A DNA stretch of 64,000 nt from Betaproteobacteria bacterium (GTDB taxonomy: Bacteria; Pseudomonadota; Gammaproteobacteria; Burkholderiales; Burkholderiaceae_D). The notes under the pieces are model-generated. The model ran no database searches. It was not told the DNA's origin and saw nothing but the letters and a program-made list of their open reading frames with translations. The stretch lies in the NCBI GenBank assembly GCA_025356395.1, contig JANXTA010000040.1:53449-117448 (forward strand), in the 5' to 3' direction. The position numbers and the translations under genes are program-made. This document shows, in pieces, positions 42,757 through 49,651 of the stretch (within the stretch, counting starts at the first letter, position 1; each line of letters opens with the position of its first letter).

Positions 42757-43848
42757 ATGCGCTTCGAAGCACGCTCGAAGGACGGCGGAGGCGCGGCCGC
42801 CAAGCGCCACGCGAGCGTCGACGATCTGCCGCGCGCCGAGACCATCATCGACGCGCGTACGCCCGCCGAGTTCGCGCTCGATCACATCCCCGGCGCCATC
42901 AACTGCCCCGTGCTGTCCGACGACGAGCGCCGTATCGTCGGCACGCTCTACAGGCAGCAGGGACCGTTCGAGGCGCGGCGCGTCGGCGGAGGCATGGTCG
43001 CGGCCAACCTCGCCCAACACCTCGCGACGTCGATGGCGGACCGGCCCGCCGGCTGGAAGCCGGTCGTCTATTGCTGGCGCGGCGGCCTGCGCAGCGGGTC
43101 GATGGTGCAGTGGCTGCGGCTAGTCGGCTGGGATGCGCGGCAACTGAGCGGCGGCTACAAGCAGTACCGCAAGCACGTCATCCAGGTCATCGACACGCTT
43201 TCGCCGCAGCTGCAGCTGCGGGTGCTGTGCGGCCCGACCGGCAGCGCCAAGACGCGCGTTCTGCAGGCCCTGGGCGACGCCGGCCAGCAGACTCTCGACC
43301 TCGAGGACTGCGCGAACCACAAGGGTTCGGTCCTCGGTGGCGTGCCGGGCGTCGAGCAGCCGTCGCAGAAGGGCTTCGAGACCCGCATCGCGACGACGCT
43401 CGAACGTTTCGACGTCACGCGGCCGGTCTACGTGGAGGCCGAGAGCCGAAAGATCGGCCGGCTCGCGTTACCCACGCCCCTGCTGGAGCGCATGCGCGAG
43501 AGTCCGTGCGTCGAGATCGTGGCCGGCGTCGATGCGCGTCTCGACTACCTTCTGCACGACTACGCCTATCTCGGAGACGACGGCGCGGCACTTGCAGCGC
43601 GCTTCGACCTGCTGCACGGGCTGCAGTCGAACGAGACCATCGCGCGCTGGAAGCAATGGGCCGTCGATCACGATCTTGCCGCGCTGTTCGGCGAGTTGAT
43701 GGTCATGCACTACGACCCGCTCTATGCCCGTTCGCAGAACGGCAACTTCCTGCGCCTGTGCGAGGCCGTACGCATCGACGTCGGGCGCCTGGCGCCCGAC
43801 GACATGCCGCAGATCGCCACGCGGATCATGGCGGCAGCCGCGGACTGA
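42757..43848 (+). CDS. mnmH: tRNA 2-selenouridine synthase
   Basis: This 363-residue enzyme (also SelU/YbbB) replaces sulfur by selenium in the wobble 2-thiouridine of some tRNAs, via a geranylated intermediate. The N-terminal rhodanese domain has Cys106 in VVYCWRGGLRSGS, and the second domain has the P-loop GPTGSAKT (about 159-166). The usual partner selD is not in this window. It starts 22 bases after the coiled-coil gene. Confidence 0.9.
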   Translation: MRFEARSKDGGGAAAKRHASVDDLPRAETIIDARTPAEFALDHIPGAINCPVLSDDERRIVGTLYRQQGPFEARRVGGGMVAANLAQHLATSMADRPAGWKPVVYCWRGGLRSGSMVQWLRLVGWDARQLSGGYKQYRKHVIQVIDTLSPQLQLRVLCGPTGSAKTRVLQALGDAGQQTLDLEDCANHKGSVLGGVPGVEQPSQKGFETRIATTLERFDVTRPVYVEAESRKIGRLALPTPLLERMRESPCVEIVAGVDARLDYLLHDYAYLGDDGAALAARFDLLHGLQSNETIARWKQWAVDHDLAALFGELMVMHYDPLYARSQNGNFLRLCEAVRIDVGRLAPDDMPQIATRIMAAAAD

Positions 43849-43859
43849 AGGCCCGAGCG

Positions 43860-44108
43860 ATGTCGTCGTCGAACAGTGATGACGTACGGCCCGGCAAGGT
43901 GACCTCGTTCCCGCTCAACGTGCAGCTCGAGGACGACGAGGTCGTGTTCTTCTCGTGGATCGAATACGAATCGCGCGCGCATCGCGATACGGTGAACGAG
44001 GCCGTGATGAAGGACCCGCGGCTCGCCCCGATGATGGATGCGGCGTAACGTCCCTTCGATGGCAAGCGGATGCTCTTTGGCAGGTTCGAGGTGATGGTCG
44101 ATCTCTGA
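43860..44108 (+). pseudogene. DUF1428 family remnant
   Basis: From 43860 the frame reads as the C-terminal half of a DUF1428 protein: DDVRPGKVTSFPLNVQ, EDDEVVFFSWIEYES and DPRLAPMMDAA. It stops at TAA 44046-44048, but the same frame resumes as RPFDGKRMLFGRFEVMVDL and ends at TGA 44106-44108, exactly the family C-terminus. The N-terminal 40 or so residues are missing; the mnmH end lies there instead. So the gene is both truncated and interrupted by an in-frame stop. Confidence 0.75.
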
Positions 44109-44223
44109 ATTCGCGACAACGATCGGATTTTCGCTCGCCTCGCTCGAAGTCGATTCTTGCCCCTCGTTCAAATTCAGCGCCGTGCCGAATATCGTTAGAG
44201 ATCGTGCGGCGTACCATCTATAT

Positions 44224-45498
44224 ATGAACGTTGCCCGCAAACTCGAAATCCTCGCCGACGCAGCCAAGTACGACGCGTCGTGCGCGTCTTCGGGCGCCGA
44301 AAAACGCAACTCGCTCGGCGGCAAAGGTATCGGCTCCACCGAAGGCATGGGCATCTGCCACAGCTACGCGCCCGATGGTCGTTGCGTGTCGTTGCTGAAG
44401 ATCCTTCTGACCAACTTCTGCACCTACGACTGCCTGTACTGCGTCAATCGCGTCTCGTCGAACGTGCCGCGTGCGCGCTTCACCGTCGACGAGGTCGTGG
44501 CCCTCACCATCGACTTCTACAAGCGCAACTACATCGAAGGCCTGTTCCTGTCGTCGGGGATCATCCAGACGCCCGACTACACGATGGAGCAGGTCGTCGC
44601 GGTCGCGCGGAAGCTGCGCAACGAACACGACTTCCGCGGCTACATCCACCTCAAGACCATCCCCGATGCGAGCGATGCATTGCTCGCCGAAGCAGGCCGG
44701 TACGCCGACCGCCTGTCAATCAACATCGAGCTGCCGTCGGTCGAAGGGATGAAGGCGCTGGCCCCGGAGAAGGACGCGCGGGCGATCCGCATCTCGATGG
44801 GCCGGCTGCGCGAGAAAATCGATGCGGCCAAGGGCGAGCGCGCCGATGCATCGCGCGTCGCGCAGGCGCAGATGAAGCCGCTAGTGAAGCCGCAGCGCTT
44901 CTCGACCAGCGGCCAGAGCACGCAGATGATCGTGGGTGCCGACGCGAGCGACGACACCCGCATCCTCGCGGTCAGCGCCAACCTCTACGGCTCGTATCGA
45001 TTGAAGCGGGTGTACTACTCGGCCTTCAGTCCGATCCCCGACGCGAGCGGCTCGTTACCGCTGAAGGCACCGCCGCTGGTGCGCGAGCATCGGCTCTACC
45101 AGGCCGACTGGCTGATGCGCTTCTATGGCTTCGCTTCGGACGAGATCGTCCAGCGCGCCGACGGCATGCTCGACCTCGACGTGGACCCCAAGCTCGGCTG
45201 GGCGCTCGCGCATCGTGAGCGCTTCCCGATGGACATCAACCGCGCATCGCGCGAGGACCTGCTGCGCGTGCCGGGACTCGGGGCGAAGACCGTCGAGCGC
45301 CTGATCGCGTCGCGCCGACATCGACGCATCCATCGTGCCGACCTCACGCGGCTGCGGGTCGCGATGGCGAAGGTGCTGCCGTTCGTGACGCTGGCCGACC
45401 ACGTGCCGAAGACGGACCAACTCGATGCCGAGCAGCTCAAGCCGCAGCTCGTGCGCGCGGTGGCCCGTGAGAGCGGACAGCTCGCGCTGTTCGCCTGA
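44224..45498 (+). CDS. radical SAM protein with C-terminal helix-hairpin-helix (DNA modification/repair type)
   Basis: This 424-residue protein has the radical SAM cluster motif CxxxCxxC at Cys66, Cys70 and Cys73 (NFCTYDCLYCVNR). A C-terminal helix-hairpin-helix follows, with LLRVPGLGAKTVERLI around residues 347-361, a DNA-binding element. This domain pair defines a family annotated as putative DNA modification/repair radical SAM proteins and usually sits beside the gene found next here. The reaction is unknown. ATG 44224 gives MNVARKLEIL, the family start. Confidence 0.88.
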   Translation: MNVARKLEILADAAKYDASCASSGAEKRNSLGGKGIGSTEGMGICHSYAPDGRCVSLLKILLTNFCTYDCLYCVNRVSSNVPRARFTVDEVVALTIDFYKRNYIEGLFLSSGIIQTPDYTMEQVVAVARKLRNEHDFRGYIHLKTIPDASDALLAEAGRYADRLSINIELPSVEGMKALAPEKDARAIRISMGRLREKIDAAKGERADASRVAQAQMKPLVKPQRFSTSGQSTQMIVGADASDDTRILAVSANLYGSYRLKRVYYSAFSPIPDASGSLPLKAPPLVREHRLYQADWLMRFYGFASDEIVQRADGMLDLDVDPKLGWALAHRERFPMDINRASREDLLRVPGLGAKTVERLIASRRHRRIHRADLTRLRVAMAKVLPFVTLADHVPKTDQLDAEQLKPQLVRAVARESGQLALFA

Positions 45499-45511
45499 TC
45501 GCCGTCGCTCG

Positions 45512-47053
45512 ATGCGTTCGATCGTCCTTGCGGACCAGACCGACTTCGCCGGATGGCGGGCGGCAGCGCGTCGCCTGGCGCTTGACGACGTCGCACCGGA
45601 GGACGTGAGCTGGTCGGTGGGCAGTGCGGACACGCTGTTTGCGGACGAGTCGCCCGATGAGGCCATCGACACGAAGGCCGCTTTCACGGTGCCGCGCTCG
45701 TTCGTCGAACGATGCGCGGCCGCCATCCTGCATCGCGATACCGATCGCTTCGGCTTCCTCTATCGGGTGCTGTGGCGGCTGCGGCGCGAACCGGAGCTGA
45801 TCGAGATCGCGGTCGACCCGGACATCGTCCGCCTCGAGGCGATGGTCAAGGCGATCCGTCGCGACCTGCACAAGATGAAGGCCTATGTGCGCTTCCGTGA
45901 AGTCAAGGTGCCCGAGTCCGCCGGCAGTCGCCCTCGCCCATCGCAGGTCGAGCGCGCGCTGCGCGACGGCGATCACTTCAACGTGCTGGCGCCCTGGTTC
46001 GTCGCCTGGTTCGAGCCGTCGCACTACATCGTCGAGGCCGTGGCGCCGTTCTTCACGCGGCGCTTCACCGCGATGCGCTGGGCGATCCTGACGCCGGACC
46101 GCAGCGCGTCGTGGGACGGCGCGAAGCTGAGCTTTGGACCCGGCGCGCACCGCAGCGATGCGCCGGACGGCGACGTGCTCGAGGACCTGTGGCGCAGCTA
46201 TTACGCGAACATCTTCAACCCCGCGCGGCTCAAGCTGGCCACGATGCAGGGGCAGATGCCGAAGAAGTACTGGAAGAACCTGCCGGAGGCCGAACTGATC
46301 GCGCCGCTGGCCGCGTCGGCGCGCCGACGGATGGACACGATGATCGAGGCGGACGCGTCGCAGGCACCGGCGCGGACCGAGCGCGTGATGCAGGCCGCGG
46401 GACATCGATCACTGGCCGAAGCTTCGACCGAGGACACCACGATGATTCCCGATTTGACGAACCTCGATCTCGCAGCCCTCGCCCATGCCGCGCGCGACTG
46501 TCGCGCGTGTCCGCTGTGGGAGCCGGCGACGCAGACGGTCTTCGGCGAAGGGGCGGTCGACGCGAGCATCGTCGTGGTGGGCGAACAGCCGGGCGACCAG
46601 GAAGACCTCGCGGGCAAACCCTTCGTCGGCCCGGCGGGCCAGCTCTTCAACCGCGCGCTGGGAGAAGCCGGCATCGATCGCAGCACGCTATACGTGACCA
46701 ATGCGGTCAAGCACTTCAAGTTCATCGTGCGCGGCAAGCGACGCCTGCATCAGTCGCCGAAAGTCACCGAGATCCGCGCCTGCCATCCATGGGTCGAGGC
46801 CGAGATCGGACGATTGCAGCCTCGTCTCGTGATCGCGATGGGCGCGTCGGCCGCGCAGAGCGTGTTCGGTCGCGCGACGCCGGTCGAGAAGAGCCGGCGG
46901 CAGTTCTTCGAGCAGGCGATCGGTGGACATCGCACGCGGGTCGTGGTGACCGTGCATCCGTCTTACCTGCTGCGACTGCCCGACGAGGAGGCGCGGGCCG
47001 CCGCCTATGCGGCGTTCGTCGAGGACCTGCGCATCGCGCACGACTCGATCTGA
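45512..47053 (+). CDS. DUF4130-UdgX fusion, uracil-DNA-binding protein
   Basis: This 513-residue protein joins an N-terminal DUF4130 domain (about 1-275; for example GDHFNVLAPWFVAWFEPSHY) to a C-terminal family 4-like uracil-DNA glycosylase of the UdgX type (about 320-510). UdgX marks are GEQPGDQEDLAGKPFVGPAG and the loop KRRLHQSP (409-416). In M. smegmatis UdgX, the His of the matching KRRIH loop forms a covalent bond to the abasic site after uracil removal; here it is His413. Iron-sulfur cysteines are Cys330, Cys333 and Cys424. It follows the radical SAM gene by 13 bases. Confidence 0.9.
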   Translation: MRSIVLADQTDFAGWRAAARRLALDDVAPEDVSWSVGSADTLFADESPDEAIDTKAAFTVPRSFVERCAAAILHRDTDRFGFLYRVLWRLRREPELIEIAVDPDIVRLEAMVKAIRRDLHKMKAYVRFREVKVPESAGSRPRPSQVERALRDGDHFNVLAPWFVAWFEPSHYIVEAVAPFFTRRFTAMRWAILTPDRSASWDGAKLSFGPGAHRSDAPDGDVLEDLWRSYYANIFNPARLKLATMQGQMPKKYWKNLPEAELIAPLAASARRRMDTMIEADASQAPARTERVMQAAGHRSLAEASTEDTTMIPDLTNLDLAALAHAARDCRACPLWEPATQTVFGEGAVDASIVVVGEQPGDQEDLAGKPFVGPAGQLFNRALGEAGIDRSTLYVTNAVKHFKFIVRGKRRLHQSPKVTEIRACHPWVEAEIGRLQPRLVIAMGASAAQSVFGRATPVEKSRRQFFEQAIGGHRTRVVVTVHPSYLLRLPDEEARAAAYAAFVEDLRIAHDSI

Positions 47054-48435: not shown

Positions 48436-49233
48436 ATGCGACACAATGTCGCGATGTCGCTTCGCACCGTCACCGCCACACGCTATGTCACGCCCCTGCG
48501 CGAAGGCGGCTCGCTGCCAGCCGTCATCGAGGCCGACGATGACGGCCTCTACGTCCTCAAGTTTCGCGGCGCGGGCCAGGGCACGAAGGCGCTGATCGCG
48601 GAGCTGGTCGGCGGCGAGCTCGCACGTGCCACGGGACTTCCGATCCCCGAGATCGTCTTCGTCCGCCTCGATGCCGAACTCGGACGCAGCGAGCCCGATG
48701 CCGAGATCCAGGACCTGATCCGTGCGAGTGCCGGCATCAACCTGGCGCTCGACTACCTGCCAGGCTCGGTGACCTTCGATCCGCTGGTCGAGCGGATCGA
48801 TGACGACCTCGCGTCGGCACTCGTCTGGTTCGACGCCTTCATCACCAACGTCGACCGCACCGCGCGCAACGCCAACCTGCTGATGTGGCATCGCCGGCTG
48901 TGGCTGATCGATCACGGCGCGGCGCTGTACTTCCACCACAACTGGTCGACCTGGCTCGACAGCAGTCGCAAGCCCTTCCCGTTGATCAGGGACCACGTCC
49001 TGCTGCCGTTCGCGAGCGAACTCGAAGCCGCGGATGCACGCATGAGCGCTGCGATCACGCCGGACGTCGTCGGCCGCATCGTGTCGCTGATTCCGGACGA
49101 CTGGCTGATCGACGACCCGCTGTTCGTGGATGCGCAGGCGCAACGTCAGGCCTACGGGCAGTACCTGACCGAGCGGCTGCAGACGCCTCGCCTCTTCTTC
49201 GAGGAGGCCGTTCGTGCCCACAACACGCGCTGA
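48436..49233 (+). CDS. HipA-like kinase family protein (HipA_2)
   Basis: This 265-residue protein carries kinase-like elements of the HipA_2 group: YVLKFRGAGQGTKALIAELV, the catalytic segment FDAFITNVDRTARNANLLMW and the metal-binding WLIDHGAALYFHH. HipA toxins phosphorylate glutamyl-tRNA synthetase in persistence, but this group lacks HipB and its target is unknown. It overlaps the next gene, DUF3037, by 20 bases; this pairing recurs. ATG 48454 is an alternative start. Confidence 0.8.
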   Translation: MRHNVAMSLRTVTATRYVTPLREGGSLPAVIEADDDGLYVLKFRGAGQGTKALIAELVGGELARATGLPIPEIVFVRLDAELGRSEPDAEIQDLIRASAGINLALDYLPGSVTFDPLVERIDDDLASALVWFDAFITNVDRTARNANLLMWHRRLWLIDHGAALYFHHNWSTWLDSSRKPFPLIRDHVLLPFASELEAADARMSAAITPDVVGRIVSLIPDDWLIDDPLFVDAQAQRQAYGQYLTERLQTPRLFFEEAVRAHNTR

Positions 49234-49651
49234 CCCGCACACCTACGACTACGCGATCGTTCGCGTGGTCCCGCGCGTCGAGCGCGGCGAGTTCGTCAAT
49301 GTCGGCGTGATCGTGTGCTGCGCGCGGCAGGGCTACCTCGAGGCGCGCATCGAGGTCGACGACGCGCGTCTCTTGGCGATCGACCCGACCGCCGACCTCG
49401 CGGCGATCCGAGTCAACCTGTCGACCATTCCCACGATCTGCGCGGGCGGCCCGGCATCCGGACCGATCGGCAAGCTGTCGATCCGCGAACGCTTCGACTG
49501 GCTGGTCGCCCCGCGCAGCACGATCATCCAGACCGCCGCGGTGCACATGGGCCGCTGCGACCAGCTCGACCACGCGCTCGAGCACCTGCTCGACCGGATG
49601 GTCCGGACGGTAGGCGCAGTCGATTTGTCGCAGACCGCCGCACTACGCTAG
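49214..49651 (+). CDS. DUF3037 family protein
   Basis: This 145-residue protein begins at a GTG and has the DUF3037 pattern YDYAIVRVVPRVERGEFVNV, then the basic segment KLSIRERFDWLVAPRSTIIQ. Function unknown. It overlaps the HipA-like kinase gene by 20 bases, so the two are made together; DUF3037 is a frequent neighbour of HipA_2 genes and may be its partner or antagonist. The SAH riboswitch begins 13 bases after its stop. Confidence 0.82.
   Translation: MPTTRADPHTYDYAIVRVVPRVERGEFVNVGVIVCCARQGYLEARIEVDDARLLAIDPTADLAAIRVNLSTIPTICAGGPASGPIGKLSIRERFDWLVAPRSTIIQTAAVHMGRCDQLDHALEHLLDRMVRTVGAVDLSQTAALR

Follow-up and report, generated by a model that had tools for sequence, protein, structure and literature searches.

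The closest described relatives of the locus considered here are three NCBIfam protein families, TIGR03916 (rSAM_link_UDG), TIGR03915 (SAM_7_link_chp) and TIGR03914 (UdgX family). The locus consists of two plus-strand genes in a stretch of 64,000 nucleotides from a Betaproteobacteria bacterium (the window; contig JANXTA010000040.1 of assembly GCA_025356395.1, positions 53,449 to 117,448). The genes encode a radical S-adenosylmethionine (SAM) protein of 424 residues (44224-45498) and a fusion of a DUF4130 part and a UdgX part of 513 residues (45512-47053), with a spacer of 13 bases between them (45499-45511), as an earlier sequence-only reading of this DNA had also placed them. All three parts score above the family cut-offs and are linked as the family names say, and the window does not differ in kind from the described trio; the names of the models give no reaction, and our survey shows that UdgX is optional. 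The radical SAM family, which we take to be COG4277, is large (at least 8000 scored candidates, every one passing an E-value of 0.001) and is named 'putative DNA modification/repair', with no reaction attached in the passages found.

The available passages of PMC8565304 describe an SOS-regulated two-gene 'COG1573-COG4277' uracil-DNA glycosylase (UDG) system in Bacteroidetes and cite earlier reports from Verrucomicrobia and Alphaproteobacteria. Apart from that paper we found no mention of COG4277 in the literature, and none of the literature passages found assigns a reaction to the pair. The system is already known and is biochemically open; the survey reported here gives four new handles on it and separates a core pair from a uracil-trapping add-on. 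We suggest, with a probability of roughly 0.55, that the radical SAM protein and DUF4130 repair damaged DNA together and that the fused UdgX domain traps uracil separately, as an optional addition.

The radical SAM/DUF4130 pair and its optional UdgX domain

The assignment of the parts is based on profiles. The radical SAM protein scores 563.5 bits against TIGR03916 (cut-off 343.5) and 36.4 bits, above the cut-off, against Pfam Radical_SAM, and the cluster motif CxxxCxxC at Cys66/Cys70/Cys73 (44419-44442) proposed in the sequence-only reading is confirmed together with the family. The second protein scores 199.1 bits against TIGR03915 (cut-off 112.25; residues 9-260, 45536-46291) and 307.9 bits against TIGR03914 (cut-off 189.95; residues 262-508, 46295-47035), and the Pfam models DUF4130 (115.3 bits) and UDG (115.9 bits) are likewise above their cut-offs.

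To define the unit we used two sets of genomes or loci. In the first, 299 Pseudomonadota genomes in which each of the three families was counted over its cut-off, TIGR03916 is present in 72 genomes, TIGR03915 in 75 and both in 72, which leaves three genomes with DUF4130 but no radical SAM gene. Caulobacter vibrioides, the control genome, gave matches to all three families. In 68 of the 72, DUF4130 follows the radical SAM gene on the same strand at a distance of at most 600 bp. The sequence-only reading had spoken of a frequent neighbourhood and had made its idea depend on co-occurrence in a wide survey; what was found is strong co-occurrence, with DUF4130 in 72/72 radical SAM genomes and the radical SAM gene in 72/75 DUF4130 genomes. 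UdgX is above the cut-off in 70 of the 299 genomes, of which 56 also have the pair and 14 lack the radical SAM gene, and it stands directly after DUF4130 in 57 of 75 DUF4130 loci; 16 of the 72 pair genomes have no UdgX above the cut-off, and all 16 have other UDG-family proteins.

The second set comprises 80 named loci, the best 80 of a longer list, picked by the radical SAM protein only; it leans to Bacillota, with some Bacteroidota and others, because similarity to a clostridial sequence determined the order of the list. DUF4130 is the next gene on the same strand in 77 of these best 80 loci (within 500 bp in 72) and lies elsewhere in the genome for the other three. UdgX is found in none of the 80 loci and, in a whole-genome search that covered the genomes of 43 of them, above the cut-off in one. 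The partner in seven Bacteroidota loci is a DUF4130 protein in which a search at an E-value of 0.1 showed no UDG domain, and the published UDG reading of the Bacteroidetes operon may therefore be a carried-over label, which suggests that this reading needs a second look. In Heliobacterium chlorum, where DUF4130 lies elsewhere in the genome, a DNA photolyase gene (L116, 6622-8022, plus strand; Pfam 91.1 bits) follows the radical SAM gene.

In total, these counts of gene content show that the core consists of the radical SAM protein and DUF4130 and that UdgX is a separate, optional add-on. Because many relatives do without UdgX, the unsolved chemistry likely belongs to the pair rather than to the uracil trap.

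The UdgX part itself is of a familiar kind. Its motif A, GEQPG, occupies residues 357-361 and its loop, KRRLH, residues 409-413 (46736-46750, with the His413 codon at 46748-46750), and the predicted model agrees with the fold of the UdgX of Mycobacterium smegmatis; family, motif and modelled fold support a UdgX-type domain with His413 in KRRLH, as had been proposed. Glu358 and His413 are kept in all 120 listed fusions. The Leu at residue 412 that the sequence-only reading had singled out as a variant of Ile is present, and nothing is special about it: in the alignment count of the same 120 fusions Leu is the commonest letter (71, with Met in 26 and Ile in 23), and we rejected it as a special variant. 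The window domain differs from the M. smegmatis protein, which has Ile in the loop, in this Leu, in being fused after DUF4130 and in sharing an operon with a radical SAM gene. By analogy with the covalent-capture chemistry of M. smegmatis UdgX treated in the available passages of PMC10359453, the fused domain is predicted to capture uracil sites covalently via His413.

The N-terminal Cys/His motif and DUF4130

The window radical SAM protein has six cysteines, the three of the cluster motif and Cys20, Cys45 and Cys54; the sequence-only reading had the former right and overlooked the latter. Of 253 aligned TIGR03916 members, 252 retain all six and the remaining one is truncated (this list excludes one paralog, L010). 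The upstream cysteines, with His46, form a motif (44281-44385 from first to last codon) whose distribution is informative in Actinomycetota, the phylum of the Coriobacteriales metagenome-assembled genome L184. Among 296 genomes of this phylum, 34 encode a radical SAM protein of this kind (30 above and four below the cut-off) and 22 have DUF4130, all of them among the 34. Cys20, Cys45, His46 and Cys54 are complete in 22/22 radical SAM proteins accompanied by DUF4130 and in 0/12 of those without it (Fisher p 1.8e-9, ignoring kinship), whereas all 34 proteins have an intact cluster motif and retain 12 residues of the core (Lys144, Asn167, Glu169, Lys183, Gln234, Arg290, Tyr292, Gln293, Asp295, Asp321, Pro322 and Lys323).

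The 12 proteins without DUF4130 have altered the motif in different ways: (i) L287 retains the three cysteines and has Arg46, (ii) L304-L308 retain Cys20 and Cys54 and have Tyr45, and (iii) L309-L314 have all lost Cys54 and five of them have Tyr45, L310 being cut before Cys54 with Cys20 and Cys45 outside its sequence. In a tree that excludes L315 and L316, which repeat L309 and L310, L287 is next to a relative that has DUF4130, and L304-L308 lie as a clade within a group of relatives that have it, and for this reason at least two of the losses look separate; L309-L314 group with paralogs across the midpoint root, where the program warns of long branches. Behind the L287 radical SAM gene lies a DUF4130 remnant with 86% identity over 22 residues to that of its neighbour, possibly an assembly error. 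In L306-L308, the next long frame downstream encodes a protein rich in cysteine, with CxxCxxC motifs like those of ferredoxins.

A similar separation is seen in the Gemmatimonadota-type paralogs, annotated as 'predicted DNA-binding helix-hairpin-helix protein', which share the cluster and the core and differ in the N-terminal cysteines. All 120 of them keep the cluster motif and the same 12 core residues; 117 lack any cysteine ahead of that motif, three have a single one there, and in 119 Arg takes the place of Cys45. A search of one record with such a paralog, a 1.1-Mb plasmid record only, gave no DUF4130. Because the motif is whole with DUF4130 and altered without it while the core stays intact, the Cys/His site seems to function together with DUF4130, and the radical SAM core appears able to persist without either. 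We infer a metal at the Cys45-His46 site, probably in the form of a second iron-sulfur cluster.

With regard to DUF4130, the leads on its role are this coupling and its predicted model. The model (pLDDT, the predicted local distance difference test, 89.4 over residues 1-265) has a tentative likeness to DHH-DHHA1 proteins (RecJ, Cdc45 and PAP phosphatase) at middling Z, with a DHHA1-like half at residues 114-219 (45851-46168). DUF4130 differs from these proteins in having no conserved set of the Asp/His metal ligands of active DHH-DHHA1 members, no GGGH-type motif in the alignment and no profile support; among Asp, Glu, His and Cys columns, conservation of at least 80% is reached at His120 and Glu259 only. 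Compared with solved structures, the DUF4130 alignment returned UDG chains and a single phage polymerase that has a UDG-like part, owing to the UDG domain of the full-length fusions that it includes; a Foldseek comparison with viral models gave no match at E <= 0.001. Residues offered for mutation are Cys45 and His46 in the radical SAM protein and His120, Arg127, Arg184, Arg239 and Glu259 in DUF4130. Residue 180 of DUF4130 is His in 91 of 98 proteins without UdgX and Phe in 51 of 57 UdgX fusions, an insertion of about 25 residues (approximately residues 135-158) is found in close relatives of the window and is absent from the stand-alone proteins compared, and in L108 and L126 the domain is spread over two open reading frames, by a frameshift or an assembly error.

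LexA-type boxes, proposed mechanism and alternatives

The scan for LexA-type boxes covered the 200 bases that precede the assumed start of the radical SAM gene and the 90 bases that follow it, with other genes of the same loci as controls; p values ignore kinship, and the Bacteroidetes motifs are those given in PMC8565304. GTTC-N7-GTTC or GAAC-N7-GAAC occurs in 33/42 Pseudomonadota loci versus 7/57 controls (p 1.5e-11). Among the best 80 named loci, GAAC-N4-GTTC occurs in 29 versus 7/353 controls (p 1.4e-17) and CTAA-N5-TTAG in six versus 2/353 controls (p 6.9e-4). CTGT-N8-ACAG is found in none of these 42 and 80 loci, and a weak GGA-N5-TCC pattern shows no excess over controls. The class of the window supplied 20 further loci: CTGT-N8-ACAG has an exact match in 14 of these and a match with one mismatch in four, two have none, and 12 of the 13 UdgX-less genomes among them have the box; the 20 upstream regions are from the 22 over-cut-off genomes of the same family, order or class, the window apart, with G248 and G256 left out. 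These scans place a LexA-type box ahead of the operon in many relatives, and such DNA-damage-type promoters suggest that the pair is used upon damage. The earlier proposal of a likely DNA-repair pair with unsolved chemistry is supported.

Combining these observations, we propose the following scheme. Upon DNA damage, DUF4130, with its putative metal-less RecJ/Cdc45-like fold, and the helix-hairpin-helix (HhH) region of the radical SAM protein would hold single-stranded or distorted DNA; the Cys66/Cys70/Cys73 cluster would cleave SAM to generate a 5'-deoxyadenosyl radical, which would abstract a hydrogen from the damaged nucleotide so that the lesion is reversed or primed; the Cys45-His46 site would bind a metal at or near the contact with DUF4130 and serve in docking or electron supply; and UdgX, where fused, would cover uracil through covalent capture by His413. 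A version of this scheme that commits itself to every part is more doubtful and is offered tentatively: TIGR03916 proteins would be two-cluster enzymes with an auxiliary iron-sulfur cluster on Cys20/Cys45-His46/Cys54 at the DUF4130 contact, DUF4130 would be a metal-less RecJ/Cdc45-like DNA clamp, and the two would carry out an undescribed radical DNA-repair reaction under LexA control in many lineages from Bacillota to Pseudomonadota, with UdgX added later.

Several observations weigh against joint DNA repair by the pair or against parts of this scheme. Three HhH models match residues 320-365 of the window protein (45181-45318) with 25, 21.7 and 21.3 bits, each below its own cut-off; the DNA-binding end claimed in the sequence-only reading is a sub-threshold match here, and HhH models exceed the cut-off in the relatives L009 and L010. 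For the DHH-DHHA1 likeness of the DUF4130 model, Foldseek gave nothing at E <= 0.001, and hhalign comparisons of DUF4130 with our own RecJ, NrnA-like and AlaRS profiles gave no significant score: out of 120 column shuffles each, 81, 69 and 103, respectively, scored as high as the real profile. In the Actinomycetota set, 8/30 radical SAM proteins over the cut-off (12/34 overall) have no DUF4130, and because of these partnerless proteins the radical SAM enzyme can presumably act without it. The region upstream of the window operon (43974-44283) has no recognisable LexA box; the best matches there have three mismatches to CTGT-N8-ACAG and two each to GTTC-N7-GTTC, GAAC-N7-GAAC and GAAC-N4-GTTC. 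The only LexA-family match of the genome itself is the divergent L256 (G000:C2:50627-51145; 89.4 bits versus a cut-off of 110.95), the neighbours of which look like ImuA and ImuB from their translations, and no operator common to the window, this lexA-like gene and recA was found by shared words, dyads or eye.

Among the alternatives, it is conceivable but unlikely that the pair modifies DNA, with a second cluster on the three N-terminal cysteines donating a sulfur or methylthio group to a base or sugar. The three conserved cysteines ahead of CxxxCxxC favor this idea and are reminiscent of lipoyl synthase (LipA) and the methylthiotransferases MiaB and RimO, which have a sulfur-donating auxiliary cluster. 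However, the DNA-damage-type boxes suggest damage-induced use, the N-terminal motif is lost along with DUF4130 while the core stays, and the radical SAM family profile matched no LipA or methylthiotransferase chain among solved structures; its weak matches, at the cluster motif, were to HydE, HydG, ThiH and another radical SAM chain.

We consider it improbable that the radical SAM protein is an enzyme of the spore photoproduct lyase (SPL) type that directly reverses a thymine photoproduct. Radical SAM chemistry, damage-type promoters in relatives and the label 'SplB-like photolyase' in the available passages of PMC3765255 speak for such an enzyme, and SplB has radical SAM and DNA repair in common with the proposed role; the window protein instead has Cys20/Cys45-His46/Cys54 and the HhH region. 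According to PMC3742179, SPL of Bacillus subtilis needs a fourth cysteine (C141) located C-terminal to the cluster motif. No cysteine follows Cys73 in the window protein or in 69 of the 253 aligned members, no cysteine position there is conserved across the 253, and the same profile search gave no SPL chain at E <= 10. Because the fourth cysteine is missing, an SPL mechanism is unlikely, and we rejected the form of it that relies on a counterpart of C141.

Very improbable is the possibility raised in the sequence-only reading that the radical SAM protein serves to release or resolve the covalent adduct between UdgX and DNA. The position of UdgX directly after DUF4130 in most Pseudomonadota loci (57/75) argues for it, but the pair commonly travels without UdgX (16/72 Pseudomonadota pair genomes; UdgX in 0/80 best named loci and 1/43 genomes) and 14/70 UdgX genomes have no radical SAM gene. 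We rejected adduct release as the basic role of the pair because of this independence; a release role might exist where UdgX is fused. An action on RNA or free nucleotides rather than DNA has equally little in its favor, since the occurrence of DHHA1 folds in nucleotide hydrolases and AlaRS and the below-cut-off HhH match of the window protein are set against above-cut-off HhH matches in L009 and L010, damage-type promoters in relatives and fusion to a UDG-type domain.

Neighbouring genes and phage matches

A scan of IMG/VR with the radical SAM protein found no relative. Phage records gave 10 matches, eight of which are labelled 'Bacteriophage sp.' and are from faecal samples; L011, labelled Acinetobacter phage MD-2021a, carries glyS, glyQ and further housekeeping genes and by appearance is a bacterial contig. 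A PADLOC scan matched neither the radical SAM protein nor the DUF4130-UdgX fusion. Upstream of the operon, a plus-strand gene (42757-43848) encodes the tRNA 2-selenouridine synthase MnmH (484.8 bits versus a cut-off of 266), and downstream, at 48436-49651 on the plus strand, a HipA_2 kinase-like gene followed by a DUF3037 gene matches the PADLOC candidate defence models PDC-M66A and PDC-M66B.

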